The notes under the pieces are model-generated. The model made no database searches and was not told the origin of the DNA. It saw nothing but the letters and a program-made list of their open reading frames with translations. From a virus, in the IMG/VR virus record IMGVR_UViG_3300023184_000281, positions 1 through 38,683 of that record: DNA of 38,683 bases, one strand, 5' to 3'. Below, piece after piece: positions 26,854 through 31,512 of the stretch (positions are counted from its first letter, which is position 1; each line of letters opens with the position of its first letter). A program made the translations under genes and the position numbers.

Positions 26854-27186
26854 ATGCAAGCCAAAAGTAGAAGTTATAATGTAAGAGGTCGGTTAATCAA
26901 TCTAGAAAAGATGCGTAGTCTTATTGTAGAAACCATTGGAGATAGAACATTAACCATTGAAGAGTTATCTAAAGACATGGGCATGGAACGTAGAAAAGTT
27001 CAATATGTTTTGCTTAACATGAAAAATTTAGGTATGTTGAATTGCGTTAAAGATGGAAAGTTATTTAAATATTTTAAACCTTATGCTCACCCATTACAAA
27101 TGATATTTCACCCTATGCCAGACTTTAGCGACAGGATTAAAGGCATTTATATTCATACAGAAGAGGAAGCCAATGCACATAGATAG
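26854..27186 (+). CDS. Winged-helix DNA-binding protein
   Basis: A 110-residue protein. Residues about 15-60 fit a winged helix: MRSLIVETIGDRTLTIEELS, then KDMGMERRKVQYVLLNMKNL with a wing-like YFKP. It probably regulates the switch to late expression or binds phage DNA, since it lies directly before the Q-like gene and overlaps it. The ATG follows AAGGAAAAAT. No exact family recognised. Confidence 0.6.
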   Translation: MQAKSRSYNVRGRLINLEKMRSLIVETIGDRTLTIEELSKDMGMERRKVQYVLLNMKNLGMLNCVKDGKLFKYFKPYAHPLQMIFHPMPDFSDRIKGIYIHTEEEANAHR

Positions 27187-27499
27187 GCTTAAACAAATTT
27201 TAGATGATTGGGCATTGTGGCATAAGACTCCAAGTCATCGTTTAGGATACCCTAGCAAGTCTTTAGGCATGATTTCAGGCGGTGAGTCTACTAGCGATGC
27301 TTTTGAGGATATGGTAGGGCAGATGGATATGACTAATGTTAGGACAATAGATGCAATTATAGATAGCTTACCCTCCAAACAAAAAGAAGCAATTTATACA
27401 AGGTATTTGAAAACTCGCAAATCTCTCAATTATGAGCATGAATTAGAAATGGGTATAGATAACTTACTAACTATAGCTTCAAGGCGTATAGTCGCTTGA
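27173..27499 (+). CDS. Q-like late antiterminator
   Basis: A 108-residue protein. The features of the Q-type antitermination family are the WALWHKTPSHRLGYPSKSLG motif, a middle acidic region, and a C-terminal helix-turn-helix-like IDAIIDSLPSKQKEAIYTRY resembling sigma region 4. It would modify host RNA polymerase stalled at the late promoter just downstream so it passes terminators. The stop lies inside the -35 of that promoter, as in lambda where Q directly precedes PR'. A sigma-factor-like regulator is the alternative. Confidence 0.72.
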   Translation: MHIDRLKQILDDWALWHKTPSHRLGYPSKSLGMISGGESTSDAFEDMVGQMDMTNVRTIDAIIDSLPSKQKEAIYTRYLKTRKSLNYEHELEMGIDNLLTIASRRIVA

Positions 27500-27524
27500 C
27501 ACGAGCATTTAATTATGATATAAT
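27496..27524 (+). promoter_or_regulatory. Perfect sigma-70 promoter (PR'-like late promoter)
   Basis: TTGACA (27496-27501), exactly 17 bases, then TATAAT (27519-27524): both hexamers match the consensus in full. The -35 overlaps the stop codon of the Q-like gene. The predicted start is near 27531, giving a leader of about 40 bases before the terminator at 27569. Position, strength and leader length match the lambda late promoter. Confidence 0.88.
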
Positions 27525-27786: not shown

Positions 27787-27969
27787 TTAGAAATTTCCTG
27801 ACTGAATTAAGTCATCCCCTAAAAAGTTTTCAAAAGTTTTTAAATCAATTCTCTGCATTTGTAATTGCAAATGATAATCATTCTCATTTAGGCTTTCGGG
27901 CATAATTAGCCCCTTAAGCCGCTTAAGCTTTTTAAAAAATAGATCATTCATAGGCTTTTCGCATAGCAT
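27787..27969 (-). CDS. Hypothetical protein (60 aa), last gene of the leftward accessory block
   Basis: A 60-residue basic N-terminal helix (MNDLFFKKLKRLKGL) followed by an acidic C-terminal half. AAGGGCT lies a few bases before the ATG, a variant of the start motif of this block. It ends 13 bases from the convergent DUF6496 gene. No family recognised. Confidence 0.5.
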   Translation of the reverse strand: MLCEKPMNDLFFKKLKRLKGLIMPESLNENDYHLQLQMQRIDLKTFENFLGDDLIQSGNF

Positions 27970-27989
27970 TAGCCCTTATAAATAAATAT

Positions 27990-28019
27990 AATAAAAAAAT
28001 AAGCCCTATAAATAGGCTT
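27990..28019 (-). terminator. Leftward hairpin with T run
   Basis: Read leftwards, AAGCC / GGCTT forms a 5-bp stem (28019-28001) followed by ATTTTTTTATT. It lies between the GP88 gene and the last gene of the block. The stem is short, so it may only attenuate transcription. Confidence 0.45.
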
Positions 28020-28068
28020 TAAAGCTTTAAAAAATTAATTCATATAGTAAGCCCTTAATAAAAGATAA

Positions 28069-28088
28069 AAGGGGCTAAAAAGCCCCTT
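28069..28088. terminator. Strong hairpin after the GP88-family gene
   Basis: An 8-bp perfect stem AAGGGGCT / AGCCCCTT with a 4-base loop lies 20 bases beyond the GP88 stop codon on the minus strand, with TTATCTTTTATT downstream in that direction. The stem is built of the same GGGGCT element used in the start motif of this block. Confidence 0.7.
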
Positions 28089-28107
28089 AAAATTGATTTT
28101 AACCCTA

Positions 28108-28845
28108 TTAAATAGCTAAAATAGGTATAGTTTTTATAATAAAGCCGCTTGTATCCTTTTTAGCCTTGCCCTTAGCATATAAGCCTAAAATAGTATTTTT
28201 AGGGGCTAAAAATGTTAGATCGCTTTCATCACCGTTTAATACTGGTAAACCCATAAAATAAGCGGGTAAATTTTGATCCGAAAAGACAGCCGCTAACCTT
28301 AAGCCTTTTTTAATTGCTATCTCATTAAACTTTTTAAATTCTGGTTTATTGGAATAGCTAAAAGTAAGATCATAATTTTTTGGTAAACTGTCACGATAAG
28401 GGCTTTTCGTGTAATCATAAAACTGTAGATCGCTAAAAATCTCAAAAATTGTGACATTGTTTAATTGTTTACCCATAAATTCATAATTAAAGCGGATATT
28501 TTCAAATTCAATATCGCTTAAGCCATTAAGCCTTATCACTGGTATTAAACCGTTTTTAATAGCTGTCTTTTTTAAAGCATGTATTTCAACGGATAATTGA
28601 TGCATAAATGCATTAATGTCATTATGAAATAATTTTGTACGCTTAAGCCTTGCATTTTGTACATTATTAAAAATGCCCCTGCCTGCCGTGTTTAAACATG
28701 CATTAATACATCCTGCCGCTTTAGCGAAAGGGCAAATATTTTTACCGCCTAAAGTATATGGGGCTAAATACATAATCCCAGTAAGATAACCCTTTTTAAG
28801 CCCTTTTATTGTTTTTGTATCCTGATTAATAGATAATAATTTCAT
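28108..28845 (-). CDS. GP88-family (gene product 88) protein
   Basis: A 245-residue protein of the phage 'gene product 88' family. It begins MKLLSINQDTKTIKGLKKGY, has the hallmark YLAPYTLGGKNICPFAKAAG, then CINACLNTAGRG with Cys38, Cys46 and Cys50, and further on RTKLFHNDINAFMHQLSVEI and FTFSYSNKPEF-like strands. The three conserved Cys suggest a bound metal or iron-sulphur cluster, but the family's activity is unknown. The start at 28845 follows AAAAGGGTTATTCT; longer readings lack a ribosome binding site. It is the largest gene of the leftward accessory block. Confidence 0.8.
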   Translation of the reverse strand: MKLLSINQDTKTIKGLKKGYLTGIMYLAPYTLGGKNICPFAKAAGCINACLNTAGRGIFNNVQNARLKRTKLFHNDINAFMHQLSVEIHALKKTAIKNGLIPVIRLNGLSDIEFENIRFNYEFMGKQLNNVTIFEIFSDLQFYDYTKSPYRDSLPKNYDLTFSYSNKPEFKKFNEIAIKKGLRLAAVFSDQNLPAYFMGLPVLNGDESDLTFLAPKNTILGLYAKGKAKKDTSGFIIKTIPILAI

Positions 28846-28930
28846 AGAATAACCCTTTTTTAGAATTGTAATTGTAAAAGGCAAAATATAGCCCTAAAGC
28901 CTTCAATGGTTTAAAGGCTTTAAGATATAT

Positions 28931-29116
28931 TTAAATAGGCTTCCCGCCTAAAGCTTTTTTTATTATTTCGTTAGCTAATTTTTTGGTATGACATAAAAAA
29001 TACCGTTGATTAATTAAGCCGCTATCCTTATATTTGAATAATTCATTCATAAATAACATTAAGCCTTTATTATCAAAGCGGGCTATTTTTTTAGATTGAA
29101 AATCAATAATATACAT
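28931..29116 (-). CDS. Hypothetical protein (61 aa)
   Basis: A 61-residue basic protein (MYIIDFQSKKIARFDNKGLM, KKLANEIIKKALGGKPI). AAAGGGCATTAATT precedes the ATG and includes the end of the upstream gene. It looks like a small alpha/beta protein. Between this gene and GP88 (28846-28930) I see no further ORF. No family recognised. Confidence 0.6.
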   Translation of the reverse strand: MYIIDFQSKKIARFDNKGLMLFMNELFKYKDSGLINQRYFLCHTKKLANEIIKKALGGKPI

Positions 29117-29118
29117 AA

Positions 29119-29358
29119 TTAATGCCCTTTCGGTAAAATCATGCCAATTTTTGCATTTTCTTCAATTGCAAAATCGGTTGCAAATTTTACTAGATCATTA
29201 ACAGCCTTTTCGCTAGGGGCATAATAATAAATACAATTCATTATGGATGATAATAAACCCGCTAACATTGTATGATCTGGATTTTCGTTTATTAATGATA
29301 ATTCTTCTAAAGCATTAAGCCCTGCATTGTAACCAGTATCAAAGTTTTGATTAATCAT
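29119..29358 (-). CDS. Hypothetical protein (79 aa)
   Basis: A 79-residue mostly helical acidic protein (MINQNFDTGYNAGLNALEEL, TMLAGLLSSIMNCIYYYAPS, VNDLVKFATDFAIEE). The start is preceded by the full block motif AAAGGGGCTTAAA. The end ILPKGH overlaps the ribosome binding site of the next gene. No family recognised. Confidence 0.62.
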   Translation of the reverse strand: MINQNFDTGYNAGLNALEELSLINENPDHTMLAGLLSSIMNCIYYYAPSEKAVNDLVKFATDFAIEENAKIGMILPKGH

Positions 29359-29369
29359 TTTAAGCCCCT

Positions 29370-29555
29370 TTAAATGTACTCATGATCAATAATAATATGC
29401 CAATAAATAGCATCACCAAATTGATTAGCCTTATCGATAGCATCTATTAAAGTATCAAGCTCAGATGTATCAATACAATCAAGCCTTAATTCAAAGCATG
29501 GGATGCCTTTTTTGTCCTTATTAGTATAGCCTTTCATTATTGTATTTGCTAACAT
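29370..29555 (-). CDS. Hypothetical protein (61 aa)
   Basis: A 61-residue protein with a strand-helix-strand pattern (PCFELRLDCIDTSELDTLID, AIDKANQFGDAIYWHIIIDH). AAAAGGGCTTAAT precedes the ATG. Part of the leftward accessory block; function unknown. Confidence 0.6.
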   Translation of the reverse strand: MLANTIMKGYTNKDKKGIPCFELRLDCIDTSELDTLIDAIDKANQFGDAIYWHIIIDHEYI

Positions 29556-29566
29556 ATTAAGCCCTT

Positions 29567-29809
29567 TTATAAAATTGCATTAATTAAAGTATTTAAATCT
29601 TTTTGCTTTTTGGTATGAATGACTGGCTGCCATTCATTATTGATAAAAGCTTGATCGATATCATGACTATATATTGATCCAATTTCATTAAATATACCTT
29701 TTACATCAGCATAACGTATATTACCTTTTTTGTTATCTATTAAAACAGCCCCAAAGCCATTTTTTAAGATTATTTGAGTACCTTTTTTAAGATCATTAGT
29801 ATTTAACAT
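29567..29809 (-). CDS. Conserved phage hypothetical protein (80 aa)
   Basis: An 80-residue protein whose beginning (LKKGTQIILKNGFGAVLIDN, then KKGNIRYADVKG and GSIYSHDIDQAF, ending NEWQPVIHTKKQ) matches a small beta-barrel-like family that I know as widespread in proteobacterial phages and plasmids without assigned function. The start at 29809 is chosen because TATAGGGGCTTAAAA precedes it; the longer reading to 29866 overlaps the micro membrane protein gene. Confidence 0.7.
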   Translation of the reverse strand: MLNTNDLKKGTQIILKNGFGAVLIDNKKGNIRYADVKGIFNEIGSIYSHDIDQAFINNEWQPVIHTKKQKDLNTLINAIL

Positions 29810-29811
29810 TT

Positions 29812-29901
29812 TTAAGCCCCTATAATTAAGAATAAAAGAATCCAGCAATAAAACGATATAAAACAAAAAGCCAGTACAATAAAATTTTTAAGAGTATTCA
29901 T
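29812..29901 (-). CDS. Micro membrane protein (29 aa)
   Basis: A 29-codon ORF begins just after the preceding gene and ends in the motif (GGG GCT TAA) that also forms the ribosome binding site of the next gene. The product is one hydrophobic helix (FIVLAFCFISFYCWILLFLI). AGGGAAGAATCATAATT precedes the start. Fits exactly between neighbours, like the other micro genes of the window. Confidence 0.55.
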   Translation of the reverse strand: MNTLKNFIVLAFCFISFYCWILLFLIIGA

Positions 29902-29903
29902 AA

Positions 29904-30104
29904 TTATGATTCTTCCCTATTGATTGAAGAAAAATCACCATGCTTATTAGCTAGCATAGAATTATAATCAGCTAGCTCATCATCATATAAATGATCATCA
30001 TCGGGCTTTATGCTTATGCTGCAGGCATTACCACAAGTGATTATTTGAAGCCTTTTTGTATCATCAATGCTATTTAATGCTTGAATGAGTATTTTATTAT
30101 TCAT
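29904..30104 (-). CDS. Hypothetical acidic protein (66 aa)
   Basis: A 66-residue acidic protein (MNNKILIQALNSIDDTKRLQ, then ISIKPDDDHLYDDELADYNS). AAAAAAGGGGCATATTAAA precedes the ATG. Acidic, compact composition is common among phage proteins that bind and inhibit host factors, but no function can be assigned. Confidence 0.6.
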   Translation of the reverse strand: MNNKILIQALNSIDDTKRLQIITCGNACSISIKPDDDHLYDDELADYNSMLANKHGDFSSINREES

Positions 30105-30105
30105 T

Positions 30106-30309
30106 TTAATATGCCCCTTTTTTAAATTGATTTGGTGCTATTGAATCCCATATTTGAAAATTATGATCGTATATCATAGCTAATTTACGTAAAGTATCCT
30201 TTTCGCTTGATCCAGTCATATACGCTTGATGATCATCGCTATAATTGTAATACCAATCATGCTTTTCTAATGCTGCTATATATTGCTTTAAGCCTTGCAT
30301 TGTATTCAT
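30106..30309 (-). CDS. Conserved phage/plasmid small protein (67 aa)
   Basis: A 67-residue protein beginning MNTMQGLKQYIAALEKHDWY. The HDWYYNYSDDHQAYMTGS and KLAMIYDHNFQIWD motifs are known to me from small hypothetical proteins in many proteobacterial phages and plasmids. The start at 30309 follows AAAGGGGCTTAAA, and the last codons (KKGAY) overlap the ribosome binding site of the next gene. Function unknown. Confidence 0.65.
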   Translation of the reverse strand: MNTMQGLKQYIAALEKHDWYYNYSDDHQAYMTGSSEKDTLRKLAMIYDHNFQIWDSIAPNQFKKGAY

Positions 30310-30310
30310 T

Positions 30311-30472
30311 TTAAGCCCCTTTATTAAATGTATTAAGAATTGAGACAGCATCCCTTAAAGGTATATTAAAAACAGCCTTAATGGTTGCAGCGTCTATTAA
30401 TGTATCCTGCTGCCTTGCATTGTATAAAGTATTCATTATCCAGTCATACTTTAATTGTGATTGATTAGTCAT
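30311..30472 (-). CDS. Hypothetical protein (53 aa)
   Basis: A 53-codon ORF with AAAGGATATAACACT before the ATG. It encodes MTNQSQLKYDWIMNTLYNAR, then a helical segment to NTFNKGA; the last three codons plus stop (AAA GGG GCT TAA) are themselves the ribosome binding site of the following gene. No family recognised. Confidence 0.6.
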   Translation of the reverse strand: MTNQSQLKYDWIMNTLYNARQQDTLIDAATIKAVFNIPLRDAVSILNTFNKGA

Positions 30473-30508
30473 AGTGTTATATCCTTTATATAGTAAGTAA
30501 GTATTAAT

Positions 30509-30844
30509 TTATAGTAAATTCAAGTTTACGTCAATAGGTTTATCGGAATTATAAAAAGGGTTTATGTAATTATGCCCTAATGTATAACGGCTATATGATC
30601 TTATTTTGCTGCTCTTATTAGTATGCAATGTTTTAAACTTATATTTAATACCTTTATCATCTAATGCTTTTAAATAGGTTGATAGATCGCAATCTTCTTC
30701 CAAATATGCGAATAGATCATTCTTAAGTATATGTAAATAAGAATAGGTGCTTATCTTATCGGCAATATTAAGTTTATGTAGCTCGGTTAACGGTACTTTA
30801 GCCCATCCGTGACTAGGATCGGTATAAATAGTGATTGATTTCAT
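30509..30844 (-). CDS. Conserved phage hypothetical protein (111 aa), first gene of the leftward accessory block
   Basis: A 111-residue protein beginning MKSITIYTDPSHGWAKVPLT, with KISTYSYLHILKNDLFAYLEEDCDLSTYL and HTNKSSKIRSYSRYTLG. The DPSHGW and YLEEDCD motifs are recognised from a family common in proteobacterial phages and plasmids, of unknown function. AAGGGGCTATT precedes the ATG. As the first gene behind the promoter it would be the most strongly expressed in the block. Confidence 0.72.
   Translation of the reverse strand: MKSITIYTDPSHGWAKVPLTELHKLNIADKISTYSYLHILKNDLFAYLEEDCDLSTYLKALDDKGIKYKFKTLHTNKSSKIRSYSRYTLGHNYINPFYNSDKPIDVNLNLL
30512..30529. repeat. 18-bp operator-like repeat, copy 1
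   Basis: TAGTAAATTCAAGTTTAC, an imperfect palindrome with GTAAA / TTTAC arms. It lies at the 3' end of the first gene of the leftward block, about 40 bases before the next gene. Copy 2 at 30865-30882 differs at two central bases. Confidence 0.7.
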
Positions 30845-30864
30845 AATAGCCCCTTAATGTTTAA

Positions 30865-30888: not shown

Positions 30889-30916
30889 ATCTTAGATTAT
30901 TAATGCATGATGTCAA
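30889..30916 (-). promoter_or_regulatory. Promoter of the leftward accessory block
   Basis: Read leftwards, TTGACA (30916-30911) and TAAGAT (30894-30889) are 16 bases apart. The -35 is perfect and the -10 is weaker (four of six). It lies 45 bases before the first gene, and the operator-like repeat sits just downstream. Confidence 0.6.
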
Positions 30917-31020: not shown

Positions 31021-31512
31021 ATGATAGATAAACCAATTGAGAATGAGACTCATTCGCATTTAGATAACGTGCAGCCTGATACTATGCCCGATGCATTAAA
31101 GCAGGATGATATAAGCATGAATGCTAGTAACAGTGTAGACGCTGCATTGATCCCTGAGATCATTGATGCTAAGGATAAAGGCGGACGACCCCCGCACCTT
31201 CCAGATGCGACCACCCGAAGTAAGGTATTCATGTTATCTACAGTAGGGACACGCCACGAAGATATTGCCACAGTACTAGGCATTAGTGCAGATACCTTGA
31301 CTAAGTATTACAATGATGAATTAGCTAAAGGTCGTATTGAAGCCAATGCTTCTGTAGCAGAGACCTTATTCAAACAAGCTAAAGAAGGCAACACGACTGC
31401 TATGATATTCTGGTTGAAGTCTAGAGCTAAGTGGAAAGAAACATCACAACATGAGATTAGTGGCAACCCTGATGGTAGTCCTGTAGAAGTAAAGATTATT
31501 ACAGGAATATAA
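31021..31512 (+). CDS. Terminase small subunit
   Basis: A 163-residue protein. A polar N-terminal region (about 45 residues) is followed by the motif GGRPPHLPDATTRSKVFMLS, a helix-turn-helix (GTRHEDIATVLGISADTLTK, YYNDELAKGRI), and a helical oligomerisation region (ANASVAETLFKQAKEGNTTA, MIFWLKSRAKWKET). This is the typical architecture of small terminases, which recognise phage DNA for packaging. Shine-Dalgarno AAGGATAT. It starts the late rightward region with the accessory block immediately upstream on the other strand. Confidence 0.85.
   Translation: MIDKPIENETHSHLDNVQPDTMPDALKQDDISMNASNSVDAALIPEIIDAKDKGGRPPHLPDATTRSKVFMLSTVGTRHEDIATVLGISADTLTKYYNDELAKGRIEANASVAETLFKQAKEGNTTAMIFWLKSRAKWKETSQHEISGNPDGSPVEVKIITGI

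Follow-up and report, generated by a model that had tools for sequence, protein, structure and literature searches.

A repeated, probably ribosome-binding start element heads most small genes of an apparently exchangeable block in a freshwater phage

We analyzed a 38,683-base virus record (IMGVR_UViG_3300023184_000281; this whole stretch is called the window) from a freshwater tailed phage related to the podovirus MW202481 (Manatee Spring). The window contains a 3.1-kb block of small genes, read leftward on the minus strand between a Q-like gene and the small terminase gene, in which most genes begin with nearly the same short motif. At a probability of roughly three in four, we read this motif as a start-associated element that would do two ordinary jobs in one string, providing a Shine-Dalgarno (SD) site, AAGGGG, at normal spacing together with the TAA stop codon of the preceding gene. 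Under the same joint figure, its spelling would be a property of the block and not of the gene, genes would be exchanged at it, and the whole block would be swapped as one of at least three versions between the two flanking genes:
27173-27499, Q-like gene, matching the MW202481 gene annotated 'antitermination protein Q'
31021-31512, small terminase gene, right flank of the block

The motif heads each of the seven listed starts, 30844 through 29116 (in order, AAGGGGCTATTATG, AAGGGGCTTAAAATG, AAGGGGCATATTAAAATG, TAGGGGCTTAAAAATG, AAAGGGCTTAATATG, AAGGGGCTTAAAATG and AAAGGGCATTAATTATG), which bears out a preliminary description of near-identical sequences at these positions. On the sense strand of the block, the pattern GGGC(A/T)3-9ATG occurs nine times, against 0.37 ± 0.61 expected (first-order block model; maximum 3 in 2000). 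Eight of these sites head plausible gene starts and the remaining one, at 29322, is intragenic; beyond them, the pattern is found twice antisense within the block and once elsewhere on the minus strand. A search for AAGGGGCTTAAAATG gives two exact copies and, with up to three mismatches allowed, nine copies, compared with 1.9 in shuffles. The sites are as follows:
30842..30855, minus strand, start motif AAGGGGCTATTATG of gene 30509-30844, the first gene of the block
30307..30321, minus strand, exact start motif AAGGGGCTTAAAATG, its TAA being the stop of the preceding 53-amino acid gene
30102..30119, minus strand, start motif AAGGGGCATATTAAAATG, its TAA being the stop of the preceding gene
29807..29822, minus strand, start motif TAGGGGCTTAAAAATG, its TAA being the stop of a 23-amino acid membrane-like peptide
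29553..29567, minus strand, start motif AAAGGGCTTAATATG of a gene shared with GGAG-type blocks
29356..29370, minus strand, exact start motif AAGGGGCTTAAAATG
29114..29130, minus strand, start motif AAAGGGCATTAATTATG, its TAA being the stop of the preceding gene
28843..28859, minus strand, variant motif AAAAGGGTTATTCTATG (AAAAGGGTTATTCT) ahead of the start of the GP88 gene at 28845
27901..27915, minus strand, start motif AAGGGGCTAATTATG ahead of the in-frame ATG at 27903

The start at 30472 lacks the motif and has TAAAGGATATAACACT. The start at 27969, previously listed among the motif-bearing ones, is preceded solely by TAAGGGCTA with a 3-nt spacer, and a good motif lies at 27915-27901; 27969 is probably a wrong start, to be replaced by the ATG at 27903. 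Among 43 starts checked elsewhere in the genome, GGAG precedes 9, GGAA or GGAT 24 and GGGG 1, confirming that ordinary sites are used outside the block.

We collected relatives in two ways. A search with GP88 gave 20 loci with identities of at least 78%, all with the same block and motif, and a terminase scan then defined a backbone set with terminases at least 92% identical. The relatives' contigs are partial and their genes were called by a script favouring SD-like starts; related contigs are also non-independent, and the fractions of sites given below are therefore descriptive and not proof. The extended motif is enriched in these phages and present in about 22 related contigs. Scanning bacterial genomes for the terminase gave no relatives and hence no host link. 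In an exact motif scan of viral contigs, scattered single matches made up most of the matches listed.

At this locus, each phage of the backbone set has a block of one of three types that exclude one another. Type B, that of the window, has GGGGC starts and was found at 23 loci (one contig being counted twice), with GP88 in 20 and the other three being fragments. Type A comprises 29 loci with GGAG starts (5-17 per locus), without a single GGGGC start and without GP88, and type D comprises five loci whose starts lean to GGGGT and GAAAGG. GP88 is confined to GGGGC-type loci among the sampled block types. More distant phages carry a type C, in part with AAAGGGGTTTAA starts. When block type was placed on a tree of terL, it changed 13 times, compared with 11.8 times for shuffled labels, scattered as if at random. 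This suggests that whole blocks were exchanged repeatedly, or that the terminase gene was. Repeated starts of their own were also seen in other lineages, with AAAGGAAACTAAAATG (locus L151), AAAGGGCTAAAAATG (L181) and AAAGGGGTTTAAATG; such lineages include L260, L270 and L085.

The composition of the motif points to translation. AAGGGG pairs with the 16S tail through one G-U pair, and the block sites give -4.4 to -7.5 kcal/mol (mean -6.0) against ACCUCCUUA, a standard tail that may not be the host's. The spacing from GGG(G) to ATG is 4-11 nt, mostly 5-7, in agreement with normal SD spacing (about 5-9 nt). The CTTAA part of the motif, which had been regarded as unexplained, is largely accounted for, because G-runs across the whole block are almost always followed by C and the TAA usually ends the upstream gene. 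GGGG has a density of 2.81 per kb, and GGGGC of 2.57 per kb, in 25 kb of block DNA sampled from ten relatives. CTTA(A) is present in 48 of the 56 sites that contain the upstream stop, compared with 12 of the 37 that do not. Since this block type never uses GGAG and puts C after G-runs, every ribosome-binding site (RBS) would become (A)AGGGGC. In 42 of 83 adjacent gene pairs, the stop is located -4 to 6 nt from the following ATG, and this overlap of SD site and stop in about half of the cases would translationally couple neighbouring genes of the leftward operon.

Several observations weigh against this reading. TTA follows GGGC at 60 of 93 starts, compared with 6 of 27 coding occurrences, leaving a modest excess, and CTTA persists in the 12 stop-free sites mentioned above. 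Type B sites pair more weakly with the anti-SD than GGAG-type sites (-5.95 vs. -8.36), so translation strength alone does not explain the spelling. The pairing is calculated with an assumed standard 16S tail, and the preference of the gene-calling script for SD-like starts bears on every called site.

The conservation beyond a minimal SD site would also fit control of translation across the whole block by a protein or RNA, specific to the block or the phage, that binds the motif; protein binding had been raised in the preliminary description. In its favour, each block type has one version of the motif, and the stem of a terminator in the block contains AGCCCC, complementary to the motif core:
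28069..28088, minus strand, intrinsic terminator AAGGGGCTttttAGCCCCTT downstream of GP88, its stem repeating the motif core
We nevertheless consider a bound factor quite unlikely. Stop codons and block-wide word usage account for most of the extra conservation, AGCCC is enriched generally in the coding DNA of the block, no inverted or other flanking repeat recurs at the motif sites, and a comparison with Rfam gave no match; evidence for protein binding was thus not found.

We compared genes shared between blocks to locate their junctions. Gene 29370-29555 is present in no other sampled type B block and shares 81% DNA identity with a gene of the type A block L206. The homology extends from ATG to stop only, and each copy has the start site of its own block. 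Gene 29119-29358 behaves likewise across types, with homology limited to the open reading frame (ORF), 72-79% identity and own-block start sites. Overall, genes shared between types keep the ORF at 72-81% DNA identity and carry the start motif of the resident block; a recipient-type motif would have been acquired after transfer, either through the crossover or by later editing.

Within type B, orthologue pairs with different left neighbours have an identity of 0.31-0.41 upstream of -14, 0.64-0.80 in the motif and 0.79-0.88 in the gene. Gene content thus changes at the motif, as had been proposed, with homology lost at about -14, its 5' edge. In pairs with the same left neighbour, similarity continues upstream (0.57-0.71). 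Unrelated type B genes agree in the motif at about 0.4-0.5, less than orthologues do, which suggests that within a type the motif partly travels with the gene. Near-identical 15-mers ahead of unrelated genes could also descend from one ancestral gene head through gene duplication within the block. This origin is very improbable, as different families are dissimilar outside the motif (identity 0.30-0.38 from -60 to -14) and the ORFs fall into separate families.

These comparisons support the view that genes are joined, and so exchanged, at the motif. Because a near-identical string heads every gene, joins within the motif or at its edge could bring genes in, remove them or change their order, presumably by recombination. 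The phage encodes an Erf-like annealing protein, a RecE/lambda-type exonuclease, SSB and NinB, which could join ends at short homologies. In a stronger version, the motif would drive the exchange of cassettes in the block, either as a specific hot spot, an idea also put forward in the preliminary description, or as a recognition site. The position of the junctions and the recombination genes would suit it, and the part of the proposal that places the end of homology at the motif stands. A hot spot set by this sequence is unsupported, because GGAG-type blocks shuffle equally and viable junctions must fall at gene boundaries in any case, so that position alone reveals no preference. Type A blocks, which lack the GGGGC spelling, have the same junction behaviour (732 pairs, 27 families), and genes transferred between types lack the donor's motif. 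Nothing indicates that the GGGGC spelling itself attracts joins, and we judge the hot spot unlikely.

The spelling of the motif is part of a wider word usage. Dinucleotides of the block differ from those of the rest of the genome (delta* 0.289), with boundaries near 27.4 and 31.0 kb. In type B blocks, GGAG/CTCC occurs 2 times vs. 63 expected and GAAC/GTTC 3 vs. 68, while GATC (184 vs. 50) and GGAT/ATCC (93 vs. 62) are enriched. Synonymous-codon shuffling of 45 non-redundant genes gave the same picture (GGAG 0 vs. 10.8, GAAC 3 vs. 20, GTTC 0 vs. 9.4), and the GATC excess outlasts it (101 vs. 67.6). In the remainder of the genome, GGAG and GAAC are normal (110/114 and 222/200) and GATC is avoided. 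Type A blocks (e.g., L003 8539-11146, L210 and L237) avoid GTAC (0 vs. 17), CTNAG (1 vs. 34) and GATC; GTAC is frequent in type B, and GGAG and GAAC are common in type A. TTGACA is repeated ahead of and within type A genes, with 17 copies vs. 5.2 expected in coding DNA.

An RNase of the RegB kind, cutting GGAG in early mRNA, would select against this word in the block. T4 RegB cleaves GGAG and GGAU in initiation regions, and on the sense strand of 25 kb of type B block DNA GGAG is absent (0 vs. 41.6 expected). We find this cause hardly credible. The antisense word CTCC, which RegB would not see, is nearly absent as well (2 vs. 21.6), and a shortage on both strands speaks against a cause acting on RNA. 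GGAT is enriched although RegB would cut GGAU, GGAG is used in the rest of the same genome, and no RegB homologue appears among the Pfam and PHROGs matches of the block proteins.

We also rejected host restriction as a simple cause of GGAG and GAAC avoidance, since outside the block these words are not avoided in the same genome. Across the genome and in both block types, GCGC, GGCC, CCGG and CGCG are almost absent and TCGA is depleted, as expected from host restriction. Recent foreign origin was rejected as the sole cause because orthologues at 72-81% identity already use the words of their own block; their GGAG-type copies contain nine GGAG or GAAC sites, none of which is shared (about 3.6 expected; small numbers). 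The word usage may come from recent arrival from another genome, from a block-linked factor or from a mutational habit. The blocks might even be true alleles, their motifs and word usage kept apart by a block-encoded factor acting on DNA or translation. Each type largely lacks words that the other favours (GGAG and GAAC vs. GATC and GTAC), and editing would be confined to DNA permanently tied to the block, given that blocks are freely swapped on a shared backbone. We regard true alleles as improbable.

The other predicted features of the block are listed below:
30889..30916, minus strand, probable block promoter, TTGACA-16-TAAGAT
30509..30844, minus strand, gene of 111 amino acids, no family, homologue in L313
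30311..30472, minus strand, gene of 53 amino acids with the motif-less start, homologues in GGAG- and GGGGT-type blocks
30106..30309, minus strand, gene of 67 amino acids
29904..30104, minus strand, gene of 66 amino acids, homologues in GGAG-type blocks
29567..29809, minus strand, gene of 80 amino acids
29370..29555, minus strand, gene of 61 amino acids, the one shared with GGAG-type block L206 (81% nucleotide identity)
29119..29358, minus strand, gene of 79 amino acids, orthologues in all block types, GGAG-type copies 72-79% identical in nucleotides
28931..29116, minus strand, gene of 61 amino acids, homologues in GGAG- and GGGGT-type blocks
28108..28845, minus strand, GP88, profile match to PF17338 (E 5e-35)

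GP88 has three invariant cysteines, CX7CX3C at positions 38, 46 and 50, in 36 sequences. A Foldseek search with its AlphaFold model (pLDDT 86) returned no significant matches. A second-look alignment of the model matched mainly radical SAM enzymes, the best match being pyruvate formate-lyase activating enzyme at a modest Z of 7.0. GP88 could possibly represent an uncharacterised radical SAM family; a nuclease was considered and set aside, as the predicted fold is closer to radical SAM enzymes at that modest Z. Between gene 28931-29116 and GP88, a 15-pair hairpin followed by T-rich DNA (28925-28892, minus strand) is a possible attenuator. The 23-amino acid membrane-like peptide (MNTLKNFIVLAFCFISFYCWILLFLIIGA-like, about 29901-29811, minus strand) is below the ORF-list length; A, B and D blocks encode similar 28-amino acid peptides, and the genes that follow them vary by phage. 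Immediately after the Q-like gene lies a perfect sigma-70 consensus, TTGACA-17(TG)-TATAAT (27496-27524, plus strand). If this is a late promoter, its transcript would cross the whole block antisense, up to the terminase genes.

To our knowledge, phage start-associated repeats have no agreed function to date. The phages compared here combine different versions of the repeat with the same backbone, and even with the same genes, so that features owned by the gene can be separated from those owned by its surroundings and function becomes directly testable. Alternating whole blocks, each with its own RBS spelling and forbidden words, amount to a natural experiment on how blocks of small genes are assembled.

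The closest known counterparts are the start-associated sequences (SAS) of cluster K mycobacteriophages, found ahead of genes from various families and without a settled role (PMC3203893, PMC12699233). The likeness noted in the preliminary description is apt. In both cases, a short asymmetric repeat in a single orientation directly precedes many small non-structural genes from several families, overlaps the ribosome-binding region and recurs across related phages. The two elements differ in consensus (GGGATAGGAGCCC there, AAGGGGCTTAAAATG here, with GGAG absent from the block), and half of the SAS carry upstream 17-bp inverted repeats (extended SAS, ESAS), none of which recur at the window's sites. 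The spelling here also switches with block type while the backbone and even the genes are unchanged. The element is akin to SAS, yet falls outside the group on both consensus and extended inverted repeats. A 26-bp repeat of Citrobacter phage Mordin similarly precedes the starts of eight hypothetical genes in one genome arm; it is longer, contains a GGAG-type SD and is of unknown role, and the passage describing it (PMC4611695) compares no alternative blocks. Boundary sequences at phage mosaic junctions are likewise short shared strings at gene boundaries where the homology of relatives starts or ends (PMC3029335), but the string shared here is an RBS and exchange between types occurs despite differing strings. 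Finally, the motif resembles canonical SD sites with stop-start coupling in pairing, spacing and overlap with the upstream stop, and is unlike them in that each block keeps to one uniform spelling other than GGAG and its coding DNA likewise excludes GGAG.

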